NCBI GenBank assembly: GCA_026413885.1
Contig: JAOAKA010000002.1
Coordinates: 1 to 64,000 of the forward strand
Origin: Sulfolobales archaeon
GTDB lineage: Archaea; Thermoproteota; Thermoprotei_A; Sulfolobales; NBVN01
DNA length: 64,000 bases
Direction: 5' to 3'
In this document: one piece after another, positions 2,659 to 31,703 of the stretch
Position numbering within the stretch: the stretch's first letter is position 1
How the letters are laid out: each line of letters begins with the position of its first letter
The notes under the pieces: model-generated
Seen by the model: the letters and a program-made list of their open reading frames with translations, nothing else
The model's database searches: none
What the model was told of the DNA's origin: nothing
Position numbers and translations under genes: made by a program

Positions 2659-3660
2659 ATGCCCTTGAAAACACCTGTCCTCATAGGTCTCATTATCGTA
2701 GCTTTAGTCGTTGCCGGTATAGCTGTCTACACTCTGTGGCCTAGACCTGTAGCTAAACCCTTTACTCTAAACATATGGACGGGTGGAACCGGTGGAGTGT
2801 ACTATCCACTAGGTGTTAAGCTATCTGAGATGTTGAATAAATACGCTGGAGACGTAATCTCGTCTTCCGTGTCTACGAGTGGTGCTTCAGTAGCTAATAT
2901 GAGAGCTCTCTCTGCTGGTGATGCTCATCTCGTTTTCGTTCAAAACGATATCGCTTACTACGCCTTTAGAGGAATCTACATGTTTGAAGGTAGTAAAGTT
3001 GAAGTTGCGAGGGGTGTGGCAGTTCTCTACCCCGAAATAGTGCAGATAGTTGTCAGAGCAGATAGTGGTATAAAGAGCATATACGACCTCGAAGGAAAAA
3101 GAGTAGCTATAGGTGCTGCTGGTAGTGGAACAGCTGTTGAAGCAGAACTAATTCTAAGAGCTGCTGGATTGTGGGGTAAGATAGCGATTCAAAACTTAGA
3201 CTTCTCAGCAGCTGCTGAATCTATTAAACTCGGATTAGTTGACGCAGCCTTCGTAGTTGCTGGAATACCTACATCTGCTGTACTATCTCTAGCTGCGACA
3301 GTACCTGTAAACTTAGTTGAAGTTCCAGATGATATATTGAATAAGCTAACTGAGCAAGGATATAGATTCTTCATTAGGTACACTGTTCCCGCGAATACAT
3401 ATACTGGAATGACGTCTAACGTTAGAACTCTAGCAGTTAAAGCTATGCTAGCTGTTAGAGCTGATGTTCCAGAAAGCGTAGTCTACAACATACTGAAAGT
3501 CATGTTTGAACGTATTAGTGAGCTTAGAGAGGCTCACGCAAGAGCGAGAGATATAGAGCTAGCGAGAGCTTTAGAGGGAATGCCCATATCTCTACACCCT
3601 GGTGCTATAAGGTTCTACCAGGAGAAGGGGATAAGTATCCCAAGTGAGTTAAGACCGTGA
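2659..3660 (+). CDS. TRAP transporter solute receptor, TAXI family
   Basis: Extracytoplasmic solute-binding component of a TRAP-TAXI secondary transporter. Residues 5-27 form a single hydrophobic anchor (VLIGLIIVALVVAGIAVY), followed by the TAXI start motif GTGGVYYPLG and a body of about 300 residues, normal for the family. The gene is followed 10 bases later by a DUF1850 gene, a recurrent TAXI partner. The fused membrane subunit is not adjacent; a candidate lies at 21375-23501. A TATA-like ATTTATAAG lies near 2620 in the 2520-2658 spacer, which holds no gene. Substrate is unknown; characterised family members take dicarboxylates or glutamate. Confidence 0.88.
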   Translation: MPLKTPVLIGLIIVALVVAGIAVYTLWPRPVAKPFTLNIWTGGTGGVYYPLGVKLSEMLNKYAGDVISSSVSTSGASVANMRALSAGDAHLVFVQNDIAYYAFRGIYMFEGSKVEVARGVAVLYPEIVQIVVRADSGIKSIYDLEGKRVAIGAAGSGTAVEAELILRAAGLWGKIAIQNLDFSAAAESIKLGLVDAAFVVAGIPTSAVLSLAATVPVNLVEVPDDILNKLTEQGYRFFIRYTVPANTYTGMTSNVRTLAVKAMLAVRADVPESVVYNILKVMFERISELREAHARARDIELARALEGMPISLHPGAIRFYQEKGISIPSELRP

Positions 3661-3670
3661 GAGACCTCTC

Positions 3671-4210
3671 TTGACGTTTCGTAAATCTGAAGTAGTCTTT
3701 TTCTATTTCGCGTATATCTCAATGCTCGCAGTATTTTTCCTACTCATTTTTACACCATTCATATCGGTAGGCCTCATCAGTGTAGATGGGGAGACAGCAG
3801 CCGTAGTAGTTAACGCTGAAGCTGAAGTAATAGTTATCTACCGCCACAGTGTGGAGCACTACCTAGTTGTAGAGAGATATGTTGTCGAAAGCTGCAGTCT
3901 CAGACTCGCACAGCTAGAGTGGGCGGGATTTGGAGCTGGGATGCCTTCGTCACTTGTAGACATATCGAATGAAGCTATCCAGTGGAAGCCTGGTGAAGGA
4001 GCTATAGCTAAGATCAACTTAACTCTCGGACACAGGATCGCAGTATCTGTAAGATACGCAGTTGATTACGCAATATTTTTGAATAACGTAAGTATAGATG
4101 TAGAAAACAATGTAACTATAGAGACATGTTTAAAAATATCGATTGTAGACCTCCTAATAGAGTACTCTAAGCTCGTACTACTAAGGCTTTACTCACTGAG
4201 AGCTCGCTAA
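3671..4210 (+). CDS. DUF1850 family membrane-anchored protein (TRAP-TAXI partner)
   Basis: 179 residues from a TTG start; an internal ATG at codon 18 is an alternative. An N-terminal membrane helix (about 10-35) is followed by an outside domain containing the DUF1850-type segments YRHSVEHYLVVERY and LEWAGFGAGMPS. In bacteria this domain is encoded between the TAXI receptor and the fused permease and is thought to help the transporter, mechanism unknown. Here it follows the receptor by 10 bases, so the two are probably one transcript. There is a second hydrophobic stretch near the C-terminus (IVDLLIEYSKLVLL). Confidence 0.7.
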   Translation: MTFRKSEVVFFYFAYISMLAVFFLLIFTPFISVGLISVDGETAAVVVNAEAEVIVIYRHSVEHYLVVERYVVESCSLRLAQLEWAGFGAGMPSSLVDISNEAIQWKPGEGAIAKINLTLGHRIAVSVRYAVDYAIFLNNVSIDVENNVTIETCLKISIVDLLIEYSKLVLLRLYSLRAR

Positions 4211-4273
4211 CAGGATTTTGTGTTACTACTCTTTACCTATCTACTTCCTAGTGCTAGCTAGTTGGGGTAGACT

Positions 4274-5284
4274 CTGCTGGCTTCAAATTTCACTAAGCTA
4301 CTGTCGTGGTGTAAACCTGGAGCACTAATTGTAACCCATAGAAACGCCGATATAGATTCTATAGCTGCAGCTATTGCTTTAAGTTACAATTTAAAAATCT
4401 ACAATAGCGCAGATTTCGAAGTCTGTGCTCCTGAGGGTGTAGATGCTGTTAGTAAGAGAGTTCTATCTGCTTTAGGCTTCAACATTCCGGCTTCCGGGAA
4501 GTGCTCTAGTAGGAGAGTTGTATTTATCGATGTATCGTCTCTAACTCAAGTAGAGGGAGTAGAATTCGAGGAGTGTTCCTTCATAGATCACCACGCAGTC
4601 AATACGCTAATGAAGAGATGTGGTCCCTCAATATATGACCCAGAGTCTAAAGCTACATCAGCTATTCTAGCTGAAGTCTTCATGCTGACTGAATATGTCG
4701 TCCCTAGAGATTACGCAACACTACTGCTAGCGGGCATACTCTTCGACACTAGATTTCTGAGAAACACCGACTCAAGACTACTGAAAATAGCTGCGTGGCT
4801 TATTGATTCAGGTGCTGACTTCGAGAAAGCTGTTAGCTCTCTAGTTCAGCAGGAGGTGTCGTACGCTGAGCGTATTGCGAGGTTGAGGAGTCTCTCGAGA
4901 ATGGGAATCTACTCGATCGGGGAGAAATACCTCATGACCGTAACCTGCGTGGGAGCTTATGAGTCGTCTTCTCTTAGATACTCAATTGAAGCGGGATCTG
5001 ATGCAGCTATAGCTCTAGCACCTAGAGATAGAGTAATTCGGGTTACTGTGAGAGTGAGTAGTAGGCTAGTTAAAGACTTGGGAACTCCTGTAGCAGCTGA
5101 GTTAGCTAGGTATCTAGGTGAGAGTCTCGGCGGTAGTGGCGGCGGCCACGAAGCTGCTGCGGGTGCTGTAATCTCTAGAGACTCTATCAGAAGCTTGGAA
5201 GGAGTTATCGCTGAATTCTTTGGAGTTCGAGGTTTTAAAGTCCGGGCCCTAGACAGAGGTAGATGGTTTGAGGAGTGTGTTTAA
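4274..5284 (+). CDS. DHH family phosphoesterase (DHH-DHHA1, RecJ/nanoRNase-like) with a probable CTG start
   Basis: Predicted phosphodiesterase on short RNA/DNA or dinucleotides. Reading upstream of the first ATG (4610) gives clear family motifs: motif I HRNADIDS (residues 22-29), motif II FIDVSS (about 86), the DHH triad at 105-107 and the DHHA1 GGGH signature with His at about 292, total 336 residues. Starting at the ATG would remove all catalytic metal ligands. The frame is closed by TAG at 4268 and contains no ATG, GTG or TTG before 4610; the first possible initiators are CTG at 4274 and 4277, with GGGG 6 bases upstream. The XPF nuclease gene starts on the base after its stop, so they are an operon and probably act in nucleic-acid turnover or repair. 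Confidence 0.8.
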   Translation: MLASNFTKLLSWCKPGALIVTHRNADIDSIAAAIALSYNLKIYNSADFEVCAPEGVDAVSKRVLSALGFNIPASGKCSSRRVVFIDVSSLTQVEGVEFEECSFIDHHAVNTLMKRCGPSIYDPESKATSAILAEVFMLTEYVVPRDYATLLLAGILFDTRFLRNTDSRLLKIAAWLIDSGADFEKAVSSLVQQEVSYAERIARLRSLSRMGIYSIGEKYLMTVTCVGAYESSSLRYSIEAGSDAAIALAPRDRVIRVTVRVSSRLVKDLGTPVAAELARYLGESLGGSGGGHEAAAGAVISRDSIRSLEGVIAEFFGVRGFKVRALDRGRWFEECV

Positions 5285-5992
5285 ATGGTAAAGATCTACG
5301 TAGACGTTAGAGAGAAAGAGTCTGATGTACCTAAATACCTCTCGGAGCTAGGTGTTACAGTAGTCTTTAAGCAGCTCTCAGTTGGAGACTACGTGATAGC
5401 TGAGAGAGTAATTGCTGAAAGAAAAAGCGTCAGCGATCTAGCTAAATCTGTTTTCGACGGGAGATTCTTCAATCAGCTGTCTAGGCTTACACGAGAAGCT
5501 GAGAGATGCTTTCTAATCGTTGAAGGCGGTCTAGAGAGACTTAAAAACCTTACGTCGAACTATAGAGCTGTGCAGGCAGCGTTATACTACTCATCTGTCA
5601 TTAGTAGAGTGCCTATTATATTGACTGATAGCCCGAGACATACTGCGGAAATACTTAAGTACTTCTCTCTAAAGCTTCAAGAAGCACCTAAAGCACTAAG
5701 CAGTGTGAGTAGGTTGAGAAATAAGCCTAGAGATGTGTCTATAGCTGAGTGGCAGATATACGTGCTATCAGCTCTCCCCGGAGTCGGGGTGAAGACCGCT
5801 GAAAAACTATTAAAGAGGTTTGGAAGTGTTAAGAACGTATTTAACGCATCTATTCCCGAGCTGATTAGTGTTGAAGGTATATCGGAGGATAAAGCTTCCC
5901 TCATCTTCAGAGTTATAAATGAGCTGTACACTAGAAAGCAGGTAAGAAGTTTAGAGAGCTTTACTGAGAAGAATAAGAAAGAGGGTAGTTAG
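5285..5992 (+). CDS. xpf: XPF/ERCC4-type structure-specific endonuclease (crenarchaeal short form)
   Basis: 235-residue nuclease without helicase domain, the crenarchaeal form that works with PCNA on 3'-flaps and forks in repair. The nuclease domain shows VGDY (33-36) and the ERKxxxD active site (E45, R46, K47, D51). Two helix-hairpin-helix repeats follow (about 150-210: LPGVGVKTAEKLL and VEGISEDKASLI). The C-terminal QVRSLESF could be a degenerate PCNA-interacting peptide (inference). ATG directly abuts the stop of the DHH gene, so the two are co-translated. The 3' end overlaps the convergent formamidase gene by four bases. Confidence 0.92.
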   Translation: MVKIYVDVREKESDVPKYLSELGVTVVFKQLSVGDYVIAERVIAERKSVSDLAKSVFDGRFFNQLSRLTREAERCFLIVEGGLERLKNLTSNYRAVQAALYYSSVISRVPIILTDSPRHTAEILKYFSLKLQEAPKALSSVSRLRNKPRDVSIAEWQIYVLSALPGVGVKTAEKLLKRFGSVKNVFNASIPELISVEGISEDKASLIFRVINELYTRKQVRSLESFTEKNKKEGS

Positions 5993-6912
5993 CTAAGCTG
6001 TGTAAGAATATGTTCGAGCTTTACATAGTTCTTCGGGATCTCTGCTCTGACACCCTTCATCGGGTCTACCACCTGATTTATTCTGAGGTCGACTACTAGA
6101 CTTGAGAGCATGTATGCTTCCTCAAAACTTACGCTAAGAGCTCTCATGAGAATTAAAACAGCTTCTTCTGAAGCTCTATAAGCTGCTTCATCTAGATCTC
6201 TCCCGAAGGCTATAATAGAGTACCTGTCCCCAGTTTCAATCACCGGATATCTCGGTCTCTTTCCCTTTACCAACTCTAATTTCACTATAACCTCACCGGA
6301 AGCCTCAGCTGCGGCTACACATATCTCTCCATCTGCCTGAACTACGTGTATATCTCCTATAGCTAGGAGAGCTCCTTCAGTAAATACGGGTAGGTAAACC
6401 CTGCTTCCAGCTGTAAGTAAGGCTACATCCATATTTCCTCCATGATGACCTGATGTCCCAGTTGGGAGTTCTCCATCTTCTGGAGCAACACCTATAACAC
6501 CGACCATAGGTCTAGCTTCAATCTCTACGTCGTTAAATAGGACTCTTCTACCTTCAACTTTCAGCATCTTCACCATCGGCTTAATCTTCCTATCTGGAAG
6601 AGCACCGAAACCCGGCGCAACTACTATTACAGCTCTATCGGAAATCCTTATATCCTCTATTTCCACTATAAGGGTATCTCCAGGTTTCGCACCCTCGACG
6701 TAGAGAGGTCCTGTAGCTGGATTCACGCGGTTCCAGTCTATTGAATCTAGAGTAGTGGCTTCATCTACTATCTGACCCCCTAAAGCATCAACTGTCTCGA
6801 AAACCACTATATCGCCGGGTACAGCAGTATATTTTGCTTGATGTAGTTTAGAGAAGCTGTATATTACGTAGTCTCTTGGAAGCCTAGTAATCAAGGTTTC
6901 ACCACACTGCAT
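5989..6912 (-). CDS. Acetamidase/formamidase family protein
   Basis: 307 residues, ATG start. FmdA/AmdA-family beta-sandwich amidase, predicted to hydrolyse a short-chain amide such as formamide to ammonia and acid. Characteristic stretches are VNPATGPLYVEGAKPGDTL near residues 85-105, the pairing GTSGHHGGNMDV (about 150-165) that supplies metal/active-site histidines, and GDIHVVQADGEICVAAAE near 190-205. No amide transporter or nitrogen regulator is adjacent, so the physiological substrate is open. Single gene; the 6913-7053 spacer holds only its promoter region. Confidence 0.88.
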   Translation of the reverse strand: MQCGETLITRLPRDYVIYSFSKLHQAKYTAVPGDIVVFETVDALGGQIVDEATTLDSIDWNRVNPATGPLYVEGAKPGDTLIVEIEDIRISDRAVIVVAPGFGALPDRKIKPMVKMLKVEGRRVLFNDVEIEARPMVGVIGVAPEDGELPTGTSGHHGGNMDVALLTAGSRVYLPVFTEGALLAIGDIHVVQADGEICVAAAEASGEVIVKLELVKGKRPRYPVIETGDRYSIIAFGRDLDEAAYRASEEAVLILMRALSVSFEEAYMLSSLVVDLRINQVVDPMKGVRAEIPKNYVKLEHILTQLS

Positions 6913-30393: not shown

Positions 30394-30852
30394 GTGTCGG
30401 CGTATATGTACTTGGTGTCAGAAGTGTCTTCGGATGTCTCTAGACTAGTAACTCAGTTGAACGCACTTAGTGAGTGGATCGAAATGCAGAAAACTACTAT
30501 AGAGACGTTTAAAGATATAAATAGTGGTATAGGTGAGGCAGATAGACTAACCTTAGTCTTACTGATTAGAAAGGCCTTCGACCACGTTATGAGGACTGTT
30601 AGAGAGTTCGATAAGTGGCTTGAAAATCCATTAGTGCTTAGCTATATCGATAGAGAGATGCTTCAAGAAGTCTGGAGCTCAGTCTATGAAATACTCGTAG
30701 AGCTACTAGAACTCGATATAAAACACACAACACTAGTTAGAGATAACGCTATAAAAATGCTGAAGTCTGGTAAGATACCTCCAGTTATAATGGAGTTTAG
30801 AAGAGCGAAAAGTGAGGAAGAAGAGACGAGGGAGGCTGTAAGGAGACTCTAA
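30394..30852 (+). CDS. Helical archaeal protein of unknown function (possibly DUF2153)
   Basis: 152 residues from GTG. Almost entirely alpha-helical, with no membrane segment; I think it resembles the uncharacterised crenarchaeal family DUF2153, with low certainty. The C-terminus is highly charged (RRAKSEEEETREAVRRL). It follows padR closely and its end overlaps the open frame of the radical-SAM gene, so the three may be one transcript. Confidence 0.7.
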   Translation: MSAYMYLVSEVSSDVSRLVTQLNALSEWIEMQKTTIETFKDINSGIGEADRLTLVLLIRKAFDHVMRTVREFDKWLENPLVLSYIDREMLQEVWSSVYEILVELLELDIKHTTLVRDNAIKMLKSGKIPPVIMEFRRAKSEEEETREAVRRL

Positions 30853-30863
30853 GGTGTTCTCTA

Positions 30864-31703
30864 ATAGCTGTAAGCTCGGGTATTCTAGCTTTCAATCCGG
30901 GAGGTAAGTTCTTAAGTATATCTATTACCGGCTCGTGGTGCGGTCTTAACTGCTCTTTCTGTAGAGGTAGATATCTTAACTCAATGACGCAATCTAACTC
31001 TCCTAGTGAACTGCGAGATATTCTATACTACTACTACGAGAGAGGAGCTAGAGGCTTTCTAATTAGCGGTGGCTTCAGTAGAGACGGCTACCTACCGATA
31101 GCTAGAGAACATGTAGAGGTGTTGAAGAATTTTAGAAAAGAGAGAGACGTATATCTATCTATTCACCTAGGACTCGCACCTAGAGAGCTGGTTGATGAAG
31201 TTCTAGAGGTATTTGACTTAGTAGACTACGAAGTCCCCCCCAGCTTCCAGTACGTAAGATATGGTAGAGGTTTGAGTAAGTCTACTGAAGACTATCTAGA
31301 ACTTCTAGATTACCTAACTAGAGAATATGGTGAAGATAGAGTAGCTCCCCATATAGTTCTCAGTAGTCCACTGGCTTCACTAAGTCAGGAACTTGATGTA
31401 GTAGAGAAAATCGGCGCTATCAATAGGAGACTAATTGTACTACTAGTACACACTGGTGTAGAGAGTCTAGATGAAAATAGAGTTCTCAGCGGGTTTCAGC
31501 TCTCTAGAAAACTCTTTAGGGAAGTCTCCTATGGATGTATGAGACCTAGAGGAAGTATTGAAGTAGTAGATAAACTCGCTAAATACAGATATATAGATAG
31601 AGTAGTAAACCCAAGTAGAAAGCTTATCGAGAAATACGGTATGCGCTTAATTAACTCGTGCTGCAGTATTTCGAAACAGACACTCAAACTCTTTGAAGAG
31701 TAA
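30864..31703 (+). CDS. Radical-SAM protein (COG1856-like) lacking a standard start codon
   Basis: The cluster-binding CxxxCxxC (C-GLN-C-SF-C) is encoded at 30939-30962, upstream of the first ATG (30984), followed by RGRYLNSM and, further on, LISGGFSRDG and HLGLAP. The overall look is that of the biotin-synthase-like COG1856 family, of unknown reaction. The frame is open back to TGA at 30813 but has no ATG, GTG or TTG before 30984. The best initiator is ATA at 30864, with GGTG seven bases upstream just after the stop of the previous gene, giving 279 residues; a frameshift from the upstream gene is the alternative. A CC pair lies near the C-terminus. Confidence 0.72.
   Translation: MAVSSGILAFNPGGKFLSISITGSWCGLNCSFCRGRYLNSMTQSNSPSELRDILYYYYERGARGFLISGGFSRDGYLPIAREHVEVLKNFRKERDVYLSIHLGLAPRELVDEVLEVFDLVDYEVPPSFQYVRYGRGLSKSTEDYLELLDYLTREYGEDRVAPHIVLSSPLASLSQELDVVEKIGAINRRLIVLLVHTGVESLDENRVLSGFQLSRKLFREVSYGCMRPRGSIEVVDKLAKYRYIDRVVNPSRKLIEKYGMRLINSCCSISKQTLKLFEE

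Follow-up and report, generated by a model that had tools for sequence, protein, structure and literature searches.

Translation of a DHH phosphoesterase gene in a genus of Sulfolobales probably starts at a conserved CTG codon

Comparison of seven species of a genus of Sulfolobales indicates that translation of a DHH phosphoesterase gene probably starts at a CUG codon (position 4274; probability roughly 0.8). The gene was identified in the window, a stretch of 64,000 nucleotides on contig C16 of a draft bin (designated G000; 1.3 Mb, 89% complete), and was found in all seven species (G000 and its congeners G001-G006); all genomes compared were metagenome bins. The reading frame occupies positions 4271-5284 of the forward strand, is limited upstream by a TAG (4268-4270) and ends with a TAA (5282-5284). 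The whole frame was checked between this TAG and the first in-frame ATG (4610-4612), and no ATG, GTG or TTG was present, as the initial annotation had reported. Its further statement that motif I (HRNADIDS, 4337-4360) and the DHH motif (4586-4594) are encoded 5' of this ATG was borne out by the translation, and a start at 4610 would delete both. Counted from the putative start codon (CTG, 4274-4276), which is directly followed by a second CTG at 4277, the gene (4274-5284) comprises 336 codons plus the TAA, and a length of 335-336 codons from the same column was found in all seven species.

The encoded protein matches the Pfam families DHH (PF01368; 1.7e-11, 44.9 bits, cut-off 28.1) and DHHA1 (PF02272; 6.9e-6, 26.9 bits, cut-off 25.9), and shares these domains and the HRNADIDS and DHH motifs with NrnA, GdpP-like proteins and the Mn-dependent pyrophosphatase. 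Unlike members of the NrnA (oligoribonuclease/PAP phosphatase; NF053633) and archaeal RecJ (NF053576) equivalogs, it scored below the curated cut-offs of these models (29.5 bits against 350 and 29.8 bits against 360, respectively), and no NCBIfam equivalog reached its curated cut-off with this protein. The ATG of an XPF-type 3'-flap endonuclease gene (5285-5992, forward strand; ERCC4 1e-29; NF040956 2.1e-61 but under the cut-off of that model) lies immediately 3' of the TAA, in line with the abutting downstream gene described previously; this junction is kept in six of the seven species, while the two genes overlap in G002. On the other side of the DHH gene, positions 2659-4210 (forward strand) hold a gene for a TAXI-type (NMT1_3) solute-binding protein followed by a DUF1850 gene, an order also seen in TRAP-TAXI transport loci.

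Protein identity to the window DHH protein was 55-74% for the six congeners and 65-74% for the four of these which carry the CTG. The aligned leaders read GGGGTAGACT-CTG-CTG in the window, GGGGTAGGTC-CTG-CTA in G004, GGGGGAAGCCG-CTG-TTA in G001, GGGGACCCGGCC-CTG-CTG in G006, GGGGGTCGAGTC-CTG-CTG in G005 and GGGCGGACTACGGTG-TTG-CTA in G003. The alignment of orthologues, which had been proposed as a check, has CTG in the column of 4274 in five of the seven species, each from an independent assembly, and TTG in a sixth, while G002 lacks the CTG and carries GTG GTG at a distance of four to five codons 5' of this column. In the window and in G005, the stretch from the upstream stop to the conserved region has no in-frame ATG, GTG or TTG; the frames of G004 and G006 likewise have none ahead of the conserved N-terminal helix, and the first canonical codons of the G004, G005 and G006 frames fall within the conserved region. 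A usable canonical start is thus missing in these four species, where CUG would be the sole start of the gene. The CTG does not hold throughout the genus, given the arrangement in G002 and an in-frame GTG six codons upstream of the CTG in G001. Almost all DHH orthologues from outside the genus have canonical start codons available close to the conserved N-terminus.

Codons 2-112 of the gene are under purifying selection, with 18, 14 and 48 differences between the window and G004 at codon positions 1, 2 and 3, respectively. Upstream of the CTG, only 19 of 60 bases are identical between the same two species in an ungapped comparison, and this DNA is not conserved. The Pfam matches, the third-position divergence and the CTG in five of seven species argue together that the frame is coding and did not arise by chance. 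CTG accounts for 10.5% of leucine codons in G000, 18.7% in G004, 10.7% in G001 and 41.7% in G005, and for 16 of the 37 leucine codons of the DHH gene of G006; the product of these frequencies, which ignores shared descent, gives a chance of about 4e-4 for five CTG codons in one column. As CTG is uncommon among the leucine codons of the A+T-richer species (10-19%), five ordinary internal leucine codons of this type are unlikely.

A Shine-Dalgarno-like GGGGT (4264-4268, forward strand) precedes the CTG; the GGGG (4264-4267) ends 6 nt before 4274, the distance given in the initial annotation, and the full element, which overlaps the TAG, ends 5 nt before it. A GGGG-type element was present 5-8 nt upstream of the CTG in all five CTG species, within ribosome-binding-site distance, and a G-rich element also lies just 5' of the start column in G003, which has the TTG. 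The 16S rRNA 3' end of the congener G001 is GGCTGGATCACCTCC, with a standard anti-Shine-Dalgarno sequence (CACCTCC), and GGGGT is able to pair with it when one G-U pair is included.

On these data, the GGGGU element would position the 30S subunit with CUG 4274 in the P site, where a normal initiator Met-tRNA with a CAU anticodon may pair with it in spite of the mismatch at the first position. The resulting protein would presumably begin with Met-Leu-Ala, methionine being the expected first residue, and the CUG might have an effect on expression level. More generally, start-codon selection in the genus may be loose, such that CUG, ACG and AUA codons behind a good Shine-Dalgarno element could be kept over long evolutionary times, including in household genes.

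Other readings of the locus were weighed against a start at CUG 4274. The initial annotation had left the choice between 4274 and 4277 undecided, and the comparison favoured the former: the column of 4277 contains CTG in the window, G005 and G006, but CTA, TTA, CTA and CTA in the remaining four. This column is not conserved, which makes 4274 the better call, and a start at 4277, which would also lengthen the spacing to the G-rich element to 8-9 nt, is improbable. Initiation at another codon just upstream of the CTG, or at differing places in different species, has about the same low probability; it would accommodate the GTG directly before the TTG in G003 and the more distant GTG codons of G001 (six codons away) and G002 (four to five), but the codon before the CTG is itself not conserved (ACT, GTC, CCG, GCC and GTC in the CTG species) and is mostly not a near-cognate, the sequence further 5' has diverged as described above, and an in-frame stop lies one to five codons upstream of the start column in three species. 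A TAG is close upstream in G004 and G006, as in the window.

A start at ATG 4610 is effectively excluded by the orthologues and by the purifying selection on codons 2-112, which lie upstream of it. That the window sequence contains an error, or that the gene is degraded, is hardly credible: G000 is a draft bin, but the CTG is present in five independent assemblies, four of them without a usable canonical start, and selection and the XPF junction have both been maintained, which upholds the earlier view that this is not a decaying gene. That the DHH frame is entered from a start further upstream, by a programmed frameshift or by read-through, is rated slightly below the two neighbouring-codon readings; a +1 shift does seem to give access to the frame of release factor aRF1 in the same order, but neither a start or stop codon nor a slippery site is conserved in the other frames of the seven aligned DHH leaders, and a prfB-like NTT-stop-C site in frame with an upstream start was not seen in them.

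The aRF1 gene lies on the same contig outside the window, with its main frame, which encodes the eRF1 domains, at G000:C16:134220-135326 and a short upstream open reading frame at 134213-134227 (both forward strand). The main frame lacks a start codon in all seven species of the genus, and lacks a canonical one in most genomes of the order examined. In the genus it is preceded by a short frame such as GTG CTA GAT ATT TAG C, and continues one base further on (AGC TCT GGA). Of 30 genomes of the order, 23 have a start codon followed by, in most cases, one or two codons, NTT and then TAG or TGA (18 identified by script and five read by eye, including ATG AGT CTT TGA C in G040), and two others have TAT TAG. 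This NTT-TAG/TGA-C arrangement resembles the shift site of bacterial prfB, YTT_TRA_C (PMC3711429). Judged by this pattern, aRF1 looks like a case of release-factor +1 frameshifting, perhaps autoregulatory, the alternative being initiation at a non-canonical codon, with Phe-Ser conserved. A 2021 review lists a single reported programmed frameshift in archaea, a -1 shift (PMC8211752).

Orthologous starts were also compared across approximately 1.5 Mb of sequence sampled from five species. An automatic survey of conserved start-less genes gave many false cases (DNA conserved between close species, antisense frames), and hand-checked alignments were used instead. Among 395 Shine-Dalgarno-aligned orthologue comparisons, which are not independent genes, 347 start columns were canonical (145 GTG, 133 ATG and 69 TTG), and CTG was the commonest non-canonical codon (11), followed by ATA (6), ACG (5) and GTA (5), with the rest scattered; for several of the 48 non-canonical columns, an alternative GTG or ATG is located nearby. 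A small control sample from another genus of the family gave one CTG, with an in-frame GTG three codons upstream, and one ambiguous ACG among 37 columns. Because this control is small, specificity to the genus is in general not established, and wider sampling was applied to the genes for TFS and Nop10.

In all seven species, the start column and next codons of the TFS zinc-ribbon gene (PF02150; G000:C16:135325-135615, reverse strand) read ACG AAG TTT TGC, and a GAGGTG-type element lies 4-6 nt upstream of them. Outside the genus the same column holds ATG in 21 of 23 genomes, TTG in one, and GTT with a TTG just before it in the other. Within the genus, G003 also has GTG at the second and third codons before the ACG, and in G006 a canonical codon precedes it by seven codons. 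For Nop10 (PF04135; G000:C11:401853-402014, reverse strand), the column which contains ATG, GTG or TTG in other genomes contains GTT in all seven congeners. As this GTT is preceded by TTG in two species (G002 and G006) and by TCG or TCA in five, the exact start is unsure. A frameshift in Nop10 (GTG AAG CTC GGT TAG) was not favoured, since G002 lacks that GTG and the TTG lies one codon before the GTT in G002 and G006.

Further cases were seen in single genes. An acetamidase/formamidase gene which adjoins the DHH/XPF pair (window 5989-6912, reverse strand) has its conserved start at TTG 6894, after GGTGA, and not at the automatically called ATG 6912; this column is TTG in the window and three other species and CTG in G004. 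In G003, ATP-synthase subunit D and a DUF61 gene have CTG where the others have ATG or GTG, and the eS30 gene reads ACG CCT ACG CAC GGG in G001, with GTG in G003. In each of the three species in which a JAB-domain gene was seen, its start column holds ATA; the out-of-frame stop immediately before this codon probably ends the upstream gene. A radical-SAM gene (window 30816-31700, forward strand) encodes its Cx3Cx2C motif 5' of the first canonical start, and its start is probably ATA 30864, 7 nt after GGTG and present in G004 as well. C-to-U editing of start codons (ACG to AUG, CUG to UUG) would fit several of these genes but not those with ATA or GTT, and no evidence for it was found.

The initiation machinery was also compared. 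Initiator tRNA genes of all seven genomes are ordinary, with a CAT anticodon, ruling out a changed initiator anticodon. Loss of aIF1 was likewise ruled out, the factor being found in six of the seven bins. A DNA pattern over the QGDHR motif of aIF1 showed asparagine in place of aspartate (QGN) in the five matched congeners G000-G004 (G000:C11:405132-405153, reverse strand; the same motif in G001-G004). Among the matches listed, the aspartate is kept in 34 other genomes and asparagine occurs in four genomes of two genera of the same family (g3 and g9); where genomes of these two genera were checked, their TFS has a normal ATG. In yeast, changes at the corresponding aspartate of eIF1 (sui1 alleles) relax start selection. 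The aIF1 of S. solfataricus favours discrimination against non-canonical starts (PMC6237735). The substitution is a candidate, and a possible, non-exclusive cause of relaxed starts. That the whole genus has relaxed start selection, with CUG, ACG, AUA and perhaps GUU or UCG as sole, long-conserved starts of household genes (TFS, Nop10, eS30, ATP-synthase D and DHH), possibly through loss of the aspartate in QGDHR, is advanced tentatively, at a little under even odds.

A review of archaeal initiation names AUG, GUG and UUG as start codons, and the string CUG is absent from its text (PMC7531240). The DHH gene agrees with the reviewed mode in its Shine-Dalgarno element a few bases upstream and in the ordinary CAU initiator tRNA of the genus, and differs from it in the CUG. 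A literature search for archaeal CTG start codons, which covered few subscription papers, returned nothing relevant. In eukaryotes, CUG and ACG are known near-cognate starts (PMC11706245, PMC6898956), and the aIF1 and aIF2 of archaea share homology with their eukaryotic counterparts; in contrast to the eukaryotic near-cognates, the DHH CUG would be the only start of its gene, fixed across most of the genus and selected with a Shine-Dalgarno element instead of scanning. Archaeal starts have been taken to be AUG, GUG and UUG, and a sole CUG across most of a genus, together with the ACG of TFS in all seven species, suggests that a lineage can loosen initiation while its core machinery still runs. 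The role of aIF1 in start-codon fidelity thereby becomes testable through natural variation. If start selection is indeed relaxed, gene callers limited to ATG, GTG and TTG would cut off or miss N-termini across the lineage, and the loss of catalytic N-termini is a warning for the use of standard callers in such lineages. In all seven species, the initiator tRNA gene was also observed to contain a short intron directly after the CAT anticodon, with conserved ends and a variable middle.
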